Below are positions 59,077 to 64,000 of a stretch of DNA of 64,000 nt, one piece after another. Position numbers and translations under genes: made by a program. The notes below the pieces were generated by a model. It worked only from the letters and a program-made list of their open reading frames with translations, had not been told where the DNA came from and ran no database searches. Source of the DNA: Fimbriimonas sp. (GTDB taxonomy: Bacteria > Armatimonadota > Fimbriimonadia > Fimbriimonadales > Fimbriimonadaceae). Numbering within the stretch: position 1 is the first letter of the stretch; the number at the start of each line of letters is the position of its first letter. The stretch is from NCBI GenBank assembly GCA_029866005.1, contig JARXAE010000003.1:248001-312000 (forward strand). Direction: 5' to 3'.

Positions 59077-59892
59077 ATGAAGCGCAAGGTGCCCATTTGG
59101 AAGCGGATCGTCCGATCCAGCCTCATGTTATTAGGCATCGTCGGCGGACTCTATGCCTGGAACCCCCAGCGCCTCCACTACTTCGCCAAGCCCGTCACCC
59201 TCCCGAAAACCGACCCCGAATCCGCAAACCTCTTTAAGAAGGGAAACCGAGTCACCGTAGTCGTCGGTCACCCAGATGACGCCGAATTCTTCATCTCCGG
59301 CACCTTGCTCAAACTCCACCAAGCCGGAGCTGCAATCACCCTCATCGTCGTCACCGACGGCGACAAAAGCTACTACCCCTGGTTCCTCACCAACGCCGAA
59401 GAGAACCGAAAAGTCCGCCGCGCCGAACAAGAAGAAGCCTCCAAAGCCTATGGCGGAAAAGTCGTCTTCCTAGGTGGCCCCGATGGCCGCTACGACCCTG
59501 ACGAAAAAGAACTCCGGGCCAAACTCCTTGCTGCCATAAAGGAGTCCAAACCTGACTACCTGCTCTCATTCGACGACGAGTACGTCCTCAAAGTCCAACA
59601 CCGCGACCACGAAAACTCCGGCCGCGCCACGCGCGAACTCGCCCCCCAAACCGGCACCAAATGGCTCCTCCTCTTCGCCACCTACGCCCCCACTTACTGG
59701 GTCGACACCAGCGGAACCTGGGACAAACGCGCCCAGCTCCTCGCTGTCCACAAAAGCCAGTTTTACGGCGAAAAGCTCAGCCTCATCCAAGGCACCGTCC
59801 TCGACAAAGCCCTCAGCGAAGGCGAGAGGATCGGCAAAGAGACCGCCGAAAGCTTCCGCGCTATTCCGCTGGATCGGTCACCCGCTCGATAA
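59077..59892 (+). CDS. PIG-L-family deacetylase with N-terminal membrane anchor
   Basis: This 271-residue protein has one N-terminal hydrophobic helix (about residues 12-27) after a basic start (MKRKVPIWKR), then the LmbE/PIG-L domain: TVVVGHPDDAEFF with the zinc ligands His65 and Asp68, RRAEQEEASKAYG, FLGGPDGRY, and VQHRDHENSGRATREL with the third ligand. The family removes acetyl groups from N-acetylglucosaminyl compounds. The membrane anchor suggests action at the outer face of the membrane. It converges on the photolyase gene with a 32-base overlap. Confidence 0.9.
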   Translation: MKRKVPIWKRIVRSSLMLLGIVGGLYAWNPQRLHYFAKPVTLPKTDPESANLFKKGNRVTVVVGHPDDAEFFISGTLLKLHQAGAAITLIVVTDGDKSYYPWFLTNAEENRKVRRAEQEEASKAYGGKVVFLGGPDGRYDPDEKELRAKLLAAIKESKPDYLLSFDDEYVLKVQHRDHENSGRATRELAPQTGTKWLLLFATYAPTYWVDTSGTWDKRAQLLAVHKSQFYGEKLSLIQGTVLDKALSEGERIGKETAESFRAIPLDRSPAR

Positions 59893-61324
59893 ACCGATCC
59901 GCCGCCCCAAAAATCCGCTCCCGTCGCGCAGGCTCCAGCCGACCCAACCCGCCTACCATCATGCTCATCCGGTGGTTCGACGCAAAGAAGTCCAAGTGCC
60001 GATCAATGAACCGCCAATACAGCCCATCCCAAACGTCGCACCACTCGCCCTTCGGGTAGTCCGACATCTTCAGAATATACGCCGACCCACTCAGATAAGG
60101 CTTTGTCGCAAAAATGCCCCCATCCGCAAACTGGCTCATCCCCAGCACGTTCGGCGCCATCACCCAATCCGCCGAGTCGATGAACATCTCCATGAACCAC
60201 CGATAGCTCTCTTGCGGGTCCACCTCGCACATCAGCATCGCCGACCCCAGCACCATCAGCCGCTCGATGTGGTGGCAATAAGCATGCTTCGCCGTCCGCT
60301 TGATCACCGTATCCAAAGGCAAAAGCCCGGTCGTCCCGTCGTACCAGCACGCCTTCAACTTCCGCCGATGCTCAAAAAAATTCGGCTCCGCGTCGTACCG
60401 AACCTGATTCTCCCGCCCGATCCAAAAGATGAATTCGCGCCACCCAACCACCTGCCGCACAAACCCCTCAAGCGAGTTCAAAGGAATCCCCTTACAATGA
60501 AGAGCCTCCGAAACAACCTGAGCCGGAGTCAACAATCCCGTGTTCAAATACGGCGTCAAAACGCTATGAAAAAGCGTCCGCTCGCGCTGCGGAATCGCGT
60601 CCTCATAATCCCCAAACCTCTCCAGCCGCTCCGCCAAAAACTCCGCCAAAGCCGCCCGAGTATCCCCATGGGTCACCCCATACCGAAACTCCGAAGCCTT
60701 CCCCGGATGCGAACCGAACAACCCAGAAACCTCCGAAATCACCTGCCGAGTGACCGAATCCGGCTCAAATCCACCCACTGACGGCGGCAAAACCGACTTC
60801 GGCAACGCCTTCCGGTTCTCCTCGTCAAAGCTCCACTTCCCGCCCGTCGGCTGGCCGTCCTCCATCAAAATCCCCAATCGCCGCCGCTGTGCCTGATAGA
60901 AATCACCCATCAACCGCCGCTTCGATCGACCCGCATACGCTTCCCAATCCGACAAAGAAGTCAAGAACATCGGGTTCGGAACCACCACCAACTCCACACC
61001 ACTAGCCGCCGCCCAAGGCCGCAAAACGTCCCGCAAAAAGAACGCATCCGCGGGCTCATAAACCCAAACCTTCTGCGGAGCCAACCCAGAAAGCCGCTCC
61101 ATCATCGACCCGTTCTGCTCGGTGATCGTCGAATACAAAACCTCCCGATCAACCGAAGCCGCAAAGTGCCGCATCGCCGAGAAAAACAGCACCAACTTCT
61201 GCTGATGATGCCGCCACCGAGTCGCCAGCCCCACATCCTCGTGCATCACCACCGGAACCCCCAAAGGCATCCCCGGAAGCCCATCAAAGAGCTGATCCCC
61301 CAGCACCAAAATCAACTCTTTCAT
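59861..61324 (-). CDS. Photolyase/cryptochrome family protein, FeS-BCP branch lacking cluster cysteines
   Basis: This 487-residue protein belongs to the bacterial (6-4) photolyase (PhrB, FeS-BCP) branch: LILVLGDQLFDGLPG at the start, GWREFIFWIGRENQV, KHAYCHHIERLMVLGSAM and NVLGMSQFADGGIFATKPYL. In PhrB four cysteines hold a 4Fe-4S cluster. Here the segment after KMSDY is shortened and has only Cys429 (PKGEWCDVWDGLYW), and the position of the first cluster cysteine appears to be Thr339. A cluster is therefore unlikely. The FAD- and DNA-facing motifs remain. I prefer ATG 61324 to a TTG at 61345. It is cotranscribed with the Y-family polymerase, 27 bases upstream. Confidence 0.87.
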   Translation of the reverse strand: MKELILVLGDQLFDGLPGMPLGVPVVMHEDVGLATRWRHHQQKLVLFFSAMRHFAASVDREVLYSTITEQNGSMMERLSGLAPQKVWVYEPADAFFLRDVLRPWAAASGVELVVVPNPMFLTSLSDWEAYAGRSKRRLMGDFYQAQRRRLGILMEDGQPTGGKWSFDEENRKALPKSVLPPSVGGFEPDSVTRQVISEVSGLFGSHPGKASEFRYGVTHGDTRAALAEFLAERLERFGDYEDAIPQRERTLFHSVLTPYLNTGLLTPAQVVSEALHCKGIPLNSLEGFVRQVVGWREFIFWIGRENQVRYDAEPNFFEHRRKLKACWYDGTTGLLPLDTVIKRTAKHAYCHHIERLMVLGSAMLMCEVDPQESYRWFMEMFIDSADWVMAPNVLGMSQFADGGIFATKPYLSGSAYILKMSDYPKGEWCDVWDGLYWRFIDRHLDFFASNHRMSMMVGGLGRLEPARRERIFGAADRFIERVTDPAE

Positions 61325-61351
61325 CGAACCTGTACTACGAGTCAAGCAAAA

Positions 61352-62665
61352 CTATCGTGCCACCCCGCGCCAAGTATCCAGCCGCTCCCCACCCATATAA
61401 CTCTCAATGTCAAAAGCGTGGTCATCCGCCCCCTCCACAAAAAGCTCCACTTTCTGAAACGCAATCCTTTCCTCCGCTGAATGCCGCCCCTGCCCCATCC
61501 CGCCCACAAAAACCGAATGCTTCCCAAACCGGTGGTTCATCTTGTCCACCGCATGGCTAAACTCCGCCCGCTCCGGAGTCTGGTCGAAAAGCGAAGGAGT
61601 CACATATTCCGGCCGCAACAGCCCCGTAAACACAATCCCCACCTGCAACGGCCGCTCAAAATCCGCCGACGGCCACTCCGAAGCAATCAGCGAAGTCACC
61701 GTCACCGAGTCCTGACAAGGCGGCACCGGCACGGTCACCTTCCAAGAGCGACGCATCCCCTTCACATATATCCCCATGTGCGTCGCCCAAAGGTTCGACT
61801 GCCGCAATCGCGCACAAGCCTTATGCGCCAACCGCATCATCACTTCCCGAGCGCCTTCCTCGGTTCGTAAGTCCGGCGGCAAAACGTGCGAATGCGACAA
61901 CGACTGATCCTGTCGGGTCTCGTAATCCACCTCGTACCCATGCAAATTGAACCAGTACCGCTCCCCACAAACCGACCCAAACGCCCGCCGCATCTCTTCC
62001 GGCGATAGCGCCAACAATTGCCGCGAAGAAAACACCCCGGCCGCATTCAGCCGCGCCTTCATCCGCTTGTTAATCCCGCAAAAATCGGTCAGCTTCAGCT
62101 CATACAGCCGTGAGGGAATATCGTCGGCGGTCAAAATCACCAGCCCGTCCGGCTTCATCATGTCCGTCGCCGTCTTCGCCAAAAAGTGGTTCGTCGCAAT
62201 CCCAAACGAAGCCGTCATGCACTCGCCGACGTTCTCCCGAATCGCCTTCTTCATCTTCAGCGCAAGCTCCCGCGCCACCGCCGGAGGAGCCTCGGTCTCC
62301 AACAACCGAAACCGCATCTCATCGATCGAACACACCTTGTCCACCGGCAGAACCGACTCGCAAACCTCGACAATCCGCTTGTGAAACGCCGTGTAAGCCG
62401 CGTGATTCCCCTTCACAATCACCACGTCCGGGCAAAGCTGTCTCGCCAGCCCAATGTTGGTGCCGGTCTTGATCCCAAACCGTTTCGCCTCATAAGAAGC
62501 CGCAATCGCCGAAGTGTTATCCCCCGCCGTCGGAGCCACAATCAAGGGCCGCCCCCGCAACGACGGATCCAACTGCTGCTCGCACGAGGCAAAGTAAGCA
62601 TTCAGGTCCATAAACATCGACTTAAGCCGACTAGGAGGCGATATAGGTAGATATTGTTCTACCAT
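61352..62665 (-). CDS. Y-family DNA polymerase (DinB-like)
   Basis: This 437-residue protein has the Y-family catalytic residues: MFMDLNAYFASCEQQ with Asp20, and VCSIDEMRF with Asp115-Glu116. It also has the fingers segment IAASYEAKRFGIKTGTNIGL, a helix-hairpin-helix thumb region (LTDFCGINKRMKARLNAAGV) and a C-terminal little-finger domain ending about residue 400. It would copy past damaged bases. A TATAAT box lies six bases before the ATG, and an 18-base palindrome overlaps codons 2-7. The operon with the photolyase links two UV-damage functions. It could also be called Pol IV; I see no beta-clamp motif that decides this. Confidence 0.9.
   Translation of the reverse strand: MVEQYLPISPPSRLKSMFMDLNAYFASCEQQLDPSLRGRPLIVAPTAGDNTSAIAASYEAKRFGIKTGTNIGLARQLCPDVVIVKGNHAAYTAFHKRIVEVCESVLPVDKVCSIDEMRFRLLETEAPPAVARELALKMKKAIRENVGECMTASFGIATNHFLAKTATDMMKPDGLVILTADDIPSRLYELKLTDFCGINKRMKARLNAAGVFSSRQLLALSPEEMRRAFGSVCGERYWFNLHGYEVDYETRQDQSLSHSHVLPPDLRTEEGAREVMMRLAHKACARLRQSNLWATHMGIYVKGMRRSWKVTVPVPPCQDSVTVTSLIASEWPSADFERPLQVGIVFTGLLRPEYVTPSLFDQTPERAEFSHAVDKMNHRFGKHSVFVGGMGQGRHSAEERIAFQKVELFVEGADDHAFDIESYMGGERLDTWRGVAR
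62646..62663. promoter_or_regulatory. Palindrome overlapping the start of the DNA polymerase gene
   Basis: GGTAGA and TCTACC form a perfect 6+6 inverted repeat with a 6-base spacer. If transcription starts at the ATG, the repeat covers about +3 to +20, a classic repressor position. It may be a damage-response operator. It does not match a LexA box that I know. Confidence 0.5.
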
Positions 62666-62671
62666 AAGTTA

Positions 62672-62677
62672 ATTATA
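62672..62677 (-). promoter_or_regulatory. Consensus -10 element of the polymerase-photolyase operon
   Basis: Minus-strand TATAAT, six bases (TAACTT), then ATG 62665. It is the best -10 in the window. No good -35 lies at 16-18 bases. Confidence 0.65.
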
Positions 62678-62693: not shown

Positions 62694-62744
62694 GATGCCT
62701 CCACAGTGCGTGTCCGGTGTCAAGACACCGGATCTCGTGGCATC
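62694..62744 (-). terminator. Large hairpin downstream of the Cys-rich lipoprotein gene
   Basis: TCCGGTGTC (62713-62721) and GACACCGGA (62724-62732) are a perfect 9+9 repeat, enclosed by GATGCC (62694) and GGCATC (62739-62744), which pair with a small bulge. It starts at the lipoprotein stop. No U-run follows. Its outer arm reaches the -35 zone of the polymerase promoter. Confidence 0.5.
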
Positions 62745-63090
62745 AAAGCTCCATTGGCGTCGGTTCCTCATCTATTGGCTTCTTCGTACAACAAGGAGTG
62801 ACTGAGTCGTAAACAAAGGTGGGATTCTTGTAGCAGTTCACACCCGTTATCGAGTTCGAAAAAAGGTCCGCAGTCACTTTCATTCGCTTCATGGTTCCGT
62901 TCTTGCATGTGTTCATCTTGTCGCAACAGACCCAAGCGATTTCTTTGATACGCTGACCACTTCCAACCGAGCCCTTACACTCGTAGACTGTTTTCTTGCC
63001 TACAGTTGGGTCGCAAGCGGAGATTGCCAGAGAGATGGCTGCGAAGGACACAATTGCTGTTCCTAAGATTCTTTGCTTTTTTGTTTTCAT
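62743..63090 (-). CDS. Small cysteine-rich lipoprotein
   Basis: This 115-residue protein has a lipoprotein-type signal ending in LAISAC at about residue 26. The mature part contains eight more cysteines: VYECKG, WVCCDKMNTCKNG, GVNCYKN and TPCCTKKP. Paired cysteines suggest disulfide bonds in the periplasm. AGGAAATGA precedes the ATG at Shine-Dalgarno distance. It lies 11 bases downstream of the pseudopilin gene, so the two are probably cotranscribed. I do not recognise the family. Confidence 0.8.
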   Translation of the reverse strand: MKTKKQRILGTAIVSFAAISLAISACDPTVGKKTVYECKGSVGSGQRIKEIAWVCCDKMNTCKNGTMKRMKVTADLFSNSITGVNCYKNPTFVYDSVTPCCTKKPIDEEPTPMEL

Positions 63091-63101
63091 GGGTTCATTT
63101 C

Positions 63102-63677
63102 CTAGTAGTTAACGTCGAGAAAATCCGATTCAGCACGAGGGCATGGCCAAAGCGTTGGGAGAGCATTGGTGAGACGGGAATCGATCTGTTCCTTACTCAG
63201 ACTTTCAAACTTGCCGTTTTCTCGCACGATCAAAAGGTAGCTGCCTAGACCTCGATATTGTTGTACCACTGAACGATGATTCCGATCCTGCACGAGCGGG
63301 AAATCGCCCTGCCGTGTCTCACGGCACCTCTCGTAGTAATCAAAGTCATTCTTCATCCCCATTCTTAGGAGTAAATCGTGATAGCCATAAAGAGCGTACT
63401 CTGAATCTTGTTCCGATCCAGACGTGCAAACAGGTTTCGTCCCCCCGAGGTACGAGTCGTAAAGGATCGTCGGATTACTTCGAAGCGGATAAGTTTCAAA
63501 GTCGGCTTGATACAATTTAGCAGCAGCATAGAGTTGCCGCATATTCGAAATGTCAACCGTGGTTTTTGCTTTAGATTTTACTCCGACTAATGCGGGTGAC
63601 AAAAACGCTACCACAATCGAGATAACAACCAGACAGACCAACAATTCGGTCAGCGAAGCTCCTCGTCTGCGACTCAT
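63102..63677 (-). CDS. Type II secretion/type IV pilin-like pseudopilin
   Basis: This 191-residue protein has a prepilin N-terminus: SRRRGASLTELLVCLVVISI, with cleavage expected after Gly6 and the hydrophobic helix that follows, including the Glu at position +5 after the cleavage site (G|ASLTE). SNMRQLYAAAKLYQADFETY and later YPLRSNPT resemble the DUF1559/GspG-like pseudopilins of environmental bacteria. Cysteines appear in KPVCTSGSEQ and LWPCPR. No other pilus or secretion genes are in the window. The ATG overlaps the stop of the upstream membrane protein (ATGA). Confidence 0.85.
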   Translation of the reverse strand: MSRRRGASLTELLVCLVVISIVVAFLSPALVGVKSKAKTTVDISNMRQLYAAAKLYQADFETYPLRSNPTILYDSYLGGTKPVCTSGSEQDSEYALYGYHDLLLRMGMKNDFDYYERCRETRQGDFPLVQDRNHRSVVQQYRGLGSYLLIVRENGKFESLSKEQIDSRLTNALPTLWPCPRAESDFLDVNY

Positions 63678-64000
63678 TGCGAGACGATCTCACTGACTGC
63701 GACAAAAATGCTGAATACTCCCGTGAGTACCAAAAGTGCGAGATGCCGGAGCGGAGCGAACTCGCTCTCGATTGGCACGAGAGAAATACAACCCCACTCA
63801 ACGAGTCCGCATAAGCAGATACAGACCAAGAGCCGAAAGTCGGTTGCCCGACTTGGCAGTAGCTTTGCGGGCGACTGAACCACATGGGCAACGCATCCCA
63901 TGATGGTCCCTAGGAGGTAAGCAATTTTCAGTTCTCCTCCAGGCATATTGAGTAGATCAAAGATTCCAGGCCAGATGTATGTCCCCCTATAATTAGTGAT
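63674..64000 (-). CDS. Membrane protein of unknown function (partial)
   Basis: The frame is open from the window edge, so the N-terminus may be outside; an internal ATG at 63946 gives a 90-residue product. The visible part has three hydrophobic segments (IAYLLGTIMGCVAHVV, FRLLVCICLCGLVEWGCISL, LALLVLTGVFSIFVAV). The region before the ATG (GTYIWPGIFDLLN) reads like coding sequence, which favours a longer protein. It overlaps the pseudopilin start. No family is recognised. Confidence 0.6.
   Translation of the reverse strand: MTNYRGTYIWPGIFDLLNMPGGELKIAYLLGTIMGCVAHVVQSPAKLLPSRATDFRLLVCICLCGLVEWGCISLVPIESEFAPLRHLALLVLTGVFSIFVAVSEIVSQ

Follow-up and report, generated by a model that had tools for sequence, protein, structure and literature searches.

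Near the end of a 64,000-nucleotide stretch of Fimbriimonas DNA (the window), the gene of a translesion DNA polymerase begins with a perfect palindrome, GGTAGA-N6-TCTACC, and the question raised by this locus is which regulator, if any, the palindrome serves. On the evidence presented below, it is very probably a LexA operator, with GTAGAC-N4-GTCTAC as the SOS box shared by the class Fimbriimonadia (phylum Armatimonadota).

The Polymerase Promoter and Its Operon

With the A of the polymerase ATG, at position 62665, taken as +1, the palindrome spans +3 to +20. On the minus strand the sequence runs GGCG-TATAAT-TAACTT-ATGGTAGAACAATATCTACC, and the TATAAT ends six bases 5' of the ATG. Because of this short distance, transcription is predicted to start at or beside the ATG, which would make the message leaderless. 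An earlier reading, made from the sequence only, had described a perfect palindrome at +3 to +20 behind a consensus TATAAT, and the sequence confirms both elements (Table 1).

Within the window the exact string occurs once; when up to two mismatches are allowed there are two matches, compared to 1.02 expected in shuffled sequence. The 2.81-Mb genome contains two exact copies, the reversed-pattern control giving none, and the second copy opens a truncated, 149-amino-acid paralogue of the polymerase located 2.8 kb away. The end of the window is duplicated just past its last position in the same genome (C20:311980-314997, L002). In addition to the truncated polymerase start, which likewise has a box, the duplicate holds second copies of the 115-amino-acid cysteine-rich, prepilin-like and membrane ORFs of 62743-64000.

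The polymerase has the IMS catalytic (PF00817) and little-finger (PF11799) domains of the Y family, with scores under the NCBIfam equivalog cut-offs, and it contains the DLNAYF and SIDE motifs, as in active Y-family polymerases. The photolyase-related gene combines the DPRP N-terminal and FAD-binding domains. A gap of 6 bases separates it from the polymerase stop codon, or of 27 if translation begins at the inner ATG, position 61324, and the two genes probably form one operon with the DPRP gene in second place. The domains agree with the earlier description of a translesion polymerase and a photolyase-family protein. The pairing is not general: of the 27 related loci from Fimbriimonadia, just 2 have the DPRP gene beside the polymerase.

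Table 1. Genes, promoter elements and motif sites discussed in the text. Positions without a contig label are those of the window; labels beginning with C denote contigs of the same genome (G000).
Feature	Position	Strand	Basis or remark
Y-family translesion DNA polymerase, DinB/Pol IV-like, 437 aa	61352..62665	minus	PF00817 1.9e-33, PF11799 2e-8
Photolyase-related protein, DPRP/PhrB-like	59861..61345	minus	PF04244 5.5e-54, PF03441 3.3e-6
LexA box (SOS operator), predicted	62646..62663	minus	GGTAGAACAATATCTACC, read 62663 to 62646; family consensus GTAGAC-N4-GTCTAC
-10 box TATAAT	62672..62677	minus	Sequence; the -10-to-box spacing recurs in most orthologues
imuB site	C23:16954		ATG inside site
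recA site	C20:184683		TAGACGCTCGTCTA
uvrB site	C37:54327
uvrA site	C33:119251
Half-size UvrA-like ATPase gene site	C33:96315
recQ site	C17:26234
Sigma-like gene site	C18:2855
ArsR-family regulator gene site	C35:8663 (L255)		Core TAGAC-N4-GTCTA directly behind TATAAT, 20 bases before gene
Polymerase operon and its truncated copy			Also promoter-located sites in this genome

The Motif at Core SOS Genes

The collected sites yield the consensus GTAGAC-N4-GTCTAC, with the core TAGAC-N4-GTCTA. The polymerase site fits this consensus at 10 of the 12 positions, the outermost G/C pair lying outside the core. A genome scan for the exact GGTAGA-N6-TCTACC, as proposed in the sequence-only reading, returns only the polymerase and its truncated copy; as a genome-wide consensus this string is too strict, and it was replaced by GTAGAC-N4-GTCTAC. 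Further copies near repair genes, whose lack had been named as counterevidence, are found with the relaxed motif. Using the core pattern or one mismatch to the consensus, promoter sites were located at imuB, recA, uvrB, uvrA, recQ and the UvrA-like gene of the same genome, and these repair-gene sites overlap the gene starts or precede them by at most about 60 bases. We read the palindrome as a LexA site because the motif recurs throughout the class before recA, imuB, the uvr genes and further repair genes and, in two separated halves, before lexA.

Repair genes account for 8 of the 39 listed sites, which has a binomial probability of about 2e-14 when repair promoters are assumed to make up 0.21% of the genome; with a share of 1%, the chance for seven sites is about 1e-7. 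Nearly all of the remaining listed matches in this genome fall within coding sequence. For the composition-matched control palindrome GAGTA-N6-TACTC, which has 37 sites, no repair-gene promoter was encountered among the 15 inspected. Genome-wide counts of the motif do not exceed those of the reversed-pattern control and were dropped as evidence; the specificity therefore rests on position and conservation. At ruvB, the genome has one half-site only, and a TAGAC-N4-GTCTA match at C36:43305 was not counted because it is inside the apparent ruvC coding sequence. The ArsR-family gene listed in Table 1 is a possible further SOS target.

In the relatives, all imuB promoters from 21 genomes match the consensus at 9-12 of 12 positions, 15 of them at no fewer than 10, and a TATAAT-like box is usually adjacent. 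Many Fimbriimonadia genomes have an exact or near-exact site at recA, which in family f2 immediately follows a TATAAT-like box. An 11/12 site precedes ruvB in six genomes, the nearest relative having a single half-site like the present genome and many others none; a good recA or ruvB site is absent in many of the genomes compared. Sites in single or few genomes were found at uvrA, uvrD, an AlkB-like gene and the gene of a small HHH/OB-fold protein resembling the C-terminus of DnaE. At the polymerase, imuB and the sigma-like gene described next, the dyad-symmetric site overlaps or adjoins the promoter.

Two further candidates for SOS functions were also observed. A protein of about 140 amino acids with a sigma-70 region-4-like helix-turn-helix (PF04545 4e-4, below the cut-off) is present in 21 of the 31 Fimbriimonadia genomes, and 16 of the 21 upstream regions have an 11/12 SOS box (L120:1603-2019; C18:2911-3318 in the present genome; L329-L349). 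This is probably a new SOS gene. The second is a two-gene cassette (L354:10580-12743 in relative G014 and L355:5984-8169 in G011), in which a protein of 258-262 amino acids precedes a Mu gpT-like major capsid protein (PF10124 1e-55). The former has no family match and resembles a phage head protease. The cassette adjoins dxr- and rseP-like genes in both relatives, and its first gene has an SOS box in G014, G011 and G012 (L170). The arrangement suggests a domesticated phage capsid, putatively under LexA control.

LexA and Its Own Promoter

One protein of the genome contains the LexA DNA-binding domain (PF01726) at a score over the cut-off. It further has the S24 peptidase domain (PF00717), an AAG cleavage site, the serine in a GDSM motif and the lysine; on these domains and residues, the genome encodes a LexA with predicted self-cleavage. 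Among solved structures, the LexA repressor 3k2z is the nearest to it in sequence.

The sequence of the lexA promoter is TTGACA-a-GTAGAC-N18-GTCTAC, and TATAAT falls within the N18, so that GTAGAC is beside the -35 box and GTCTAC after the -10 box. The standard N4 box was sought in the lexA promoters of the same genus and is absent there, only the N18/19 pair being found. Among 30 lexA promoters, the spacing is N18 in 15 and N19 in 3, while most of the others have only GTAGAC beside the -35 box. With respect to autoregulation, both half-sites are conserved but 18-19 bases apart instead of 4, and several families have one half-site only. It is also observed that families f2 and f5 mostly have just the GTAGAC beside the -35 box, and that a third half-site is often located near the ATG (L045 1440-1475; L061-L089). 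Our guess is that two dimers sit on the split operator, each on one strong half-site.

LexA Types across the Phylum

In the phylum, the palindrome of the lexA promoter follows the type of the LexA recognition helix, SLRGVT going with AGAC-type sites and SSCTVQ with AAAC-N4-GTTT. Genomes outside the class with the S[ST]CTVQ helix have AAAC-N4-GTTT at lexA, exact in 8 and with one mismatch in 4 more. Five SLRGVT-type lexA promoters come from outside Fimbriimonadia: two have GTAGAC, one has a perfect CCAGAC-N4-GTCTGG, and two have no clear site. Because site and recognition helix vary together, LexA is indicated as the binder. Among the Armatimonadota lexA promoters L227-L253, those of genomes where the LexA helix is SSCTVQ[RK]HL have a CAAAC-N4-GTTTG-like palindrome, which is probably a second LexA box in the phylum.

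A check outside the phylum is provided by the polymerase itself. The alphaproteobacterial LexA motif has been published as GTTC-N7-GTTC (PMC8565304), and GAAC-N7-GAAC stands before five proteobacterial polymerase orthologues (L033, L035, L038, L040, L042), at a frequency of 0-0.3% in shuffles; it precedes none of ten other non-Fimbriimonadia orthologues. Because the proteobacterial orthologues carry this motif, the polymerase counts among the SOS genes in lineages whose box is already known. The promoters of planctomycete orthologues (L027, L028, L031, Planctomycetota) have in common a GTGTACATCCGTATGCTATA-like sequence, perhaps the damage box of another lineage.

Light-dependent repair proteins can be under light-responsive regulators in other bacteria. 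The presence of such a protein in the operon, together with a lexA promoter that is split and lacks the standard box, would suit an operator of another damage-responsive regulator (DdrO-like, MerR/LitR-like or some other repressor) acting over the repair genes and lexA, but the targets are the SOS core (recA, imuB, uvrA, uvrB, ruvB, uvrD and, with its separated half-sites, lexA), and LexA was found in all 31 Fimbriimonadia genomes searched. Such a regulator is also at odds with the variation of the lexA-promoter palindrome with the LexA helix and with the known LexA box of the proteobacterial orthologues, and we consider it improbable.

Conservation of the Site at the DNA Level

The palindrome is not missing from orthologous promoters, the other outcome that the sequence-only reading had counted against its proposal. 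The Fimbriimonadia polymerase orthologues have GTAGAC-N5-TCTAC in the corresponding position, and the match to the consensus is at least 10/12 in 22 of 27 and lower in 5, these counts not being independent events since the orthologues are kin. At the same threshold, a match is found at 1 of the 299 remaining ORF starts of these loci and in none of 15 polymerase orthologues from other phyla. The coding part of the site uses GTA and CTA, which make up 5.7% of the Val and 4.3% of the Leu codons in the same genes, and three orthologues (L007, L014, L023) retain the site with ATA where the ATG stood. Conservation of the site at the level of the DNA is indicated by the fixation of these rare codons and by the survival of the site where the ATG became ATA.

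These observations, together with the positions of the sites, led us to reject two further readings. An RNA-level role, in which a 5'-terminal hairpin GGUAGA/UCUACC would govern translation or stability of the leaderless message, is suggested by the location between +3 and +20 in the predicted transcript, but at imuB and the sigma-like gene the motif lies upstream of or over the -10/-35 boxes, often outside any predicted transcript, the recA site can come before or after the -10 box, and it is a fixed sequence that is conserved and not pairing alone, which makes the hairpin very unlikely. That the N-terminus M-V-[DE]-x-x-L-P merely happens to spell the palindrome, as the MVDxxLP encoded in many orthologues might suggest, is next to inconceivable in view of the fixed rare codons, the ATA orthologues and the motif at unrelated genes, outside coding sequence.

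The targets and the conservation at orthologues thus lend support to the earlier idea of a lineage-specific damage box, with the consensus corrected to GTAGAC-N4-GTCTAC. As a separate observation, GTAGACATTGTTCTAC recurs many times in the relative G003 (contigs C8, C10, C18, C30, C44, C54), and the flanking sequences that were read are similar; this is a dispersed repeat, itself containing a box-like palindrome.

Proposed Mechanism

What the sequences show is the motif, the genes at which it stands, the conservation of the site in the DNA itself and its change along with the type of LexA. The mechanism put forward here adds promoter anatomy and established LexA biology to them; LexA binding, repression, the promoter class, the transcription start and induction by damage are predictions of this kind. 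In the undamaged cell, a LexA dimer would occupy +3 to +20, immediately downstream of the -10 box. There it would prevent RNA polymerase from opening the leaderless promoter that serves the polymerase-photolyase operon, or from leaving it. Upon DNA damage, the RecA filament would provoke self-cleavage of LexA and thereby release the operon, which would be expressed together with recA, uvrA, uvrB, imuB, recQ and others.

A wider circuit is conceivable, and we propose it tentatively, as somewhat doubtful. In it, LexA would control lexA via the half-sites 18-19 bases apart around the -10 box and would also repress the sigma-region-4-like protein, a possible second-tier activator of the damage response, while in some members the SOS box would also govern a domesticated Mu-like capsid cassette.

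Comparison with Known SOS Systems

The LexA box of E. coli is CTGT-N8-ACAG. By 2021, 17 LexA motifs had been reported (PMC8565304), and both GTAGAC-N4-GTCTAC and the phylum are absent from the text of that paper. A literature text search for GTAGAC with LexA gave only unrelated papers, and no relevant paper on LexA in Armatimonadetes, Armatimonadota or Fimbriimonas was found; most subscription journals are outside this search, and an earlier description is possible. The present work supplies a concrete and testable SOS box, together with an initial set of targets, for a class whose phylum had no SOS study in the literature searched, and with the box the damage regulons of many uncultured Fimbriimonadia genomes become readable. 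Candidates for new SOS functions are the conserved sigma-like gene and the boxed capsid cassette. The two LexA types in one phylum, with AGAC and AAAC at equal spacing, offer a clean system for the evolution of LexA recognition.

The Armatimonadota with the SSCTVQ[RK]HL LexA share the N4 half-site geometry at the lexA promoter but differ in the recognition helix and in having AAAC in place of AGAC. The alphaproteobacterial GTTC-N7-GTTC box precedes orthologues of the same polymerase, but it is a direct repeat with other letters, compared to the inverted repeat found here. With the known LexA regulons in general, the system has in common the regulator family (PF01726 and PF00717), a predicted palindromic operator overlapping the promoter and the targets recA, Y-family polymerase, imuB, uvrA, uvrB and ruvB, with lexA as a possible further one, whereas the motif GTAGAC-N4-GTCTAC and the split half-sites at lexA set it apart. 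What would be new is the box; the kind of system, a LexA-controlled SOS regulon, is known.
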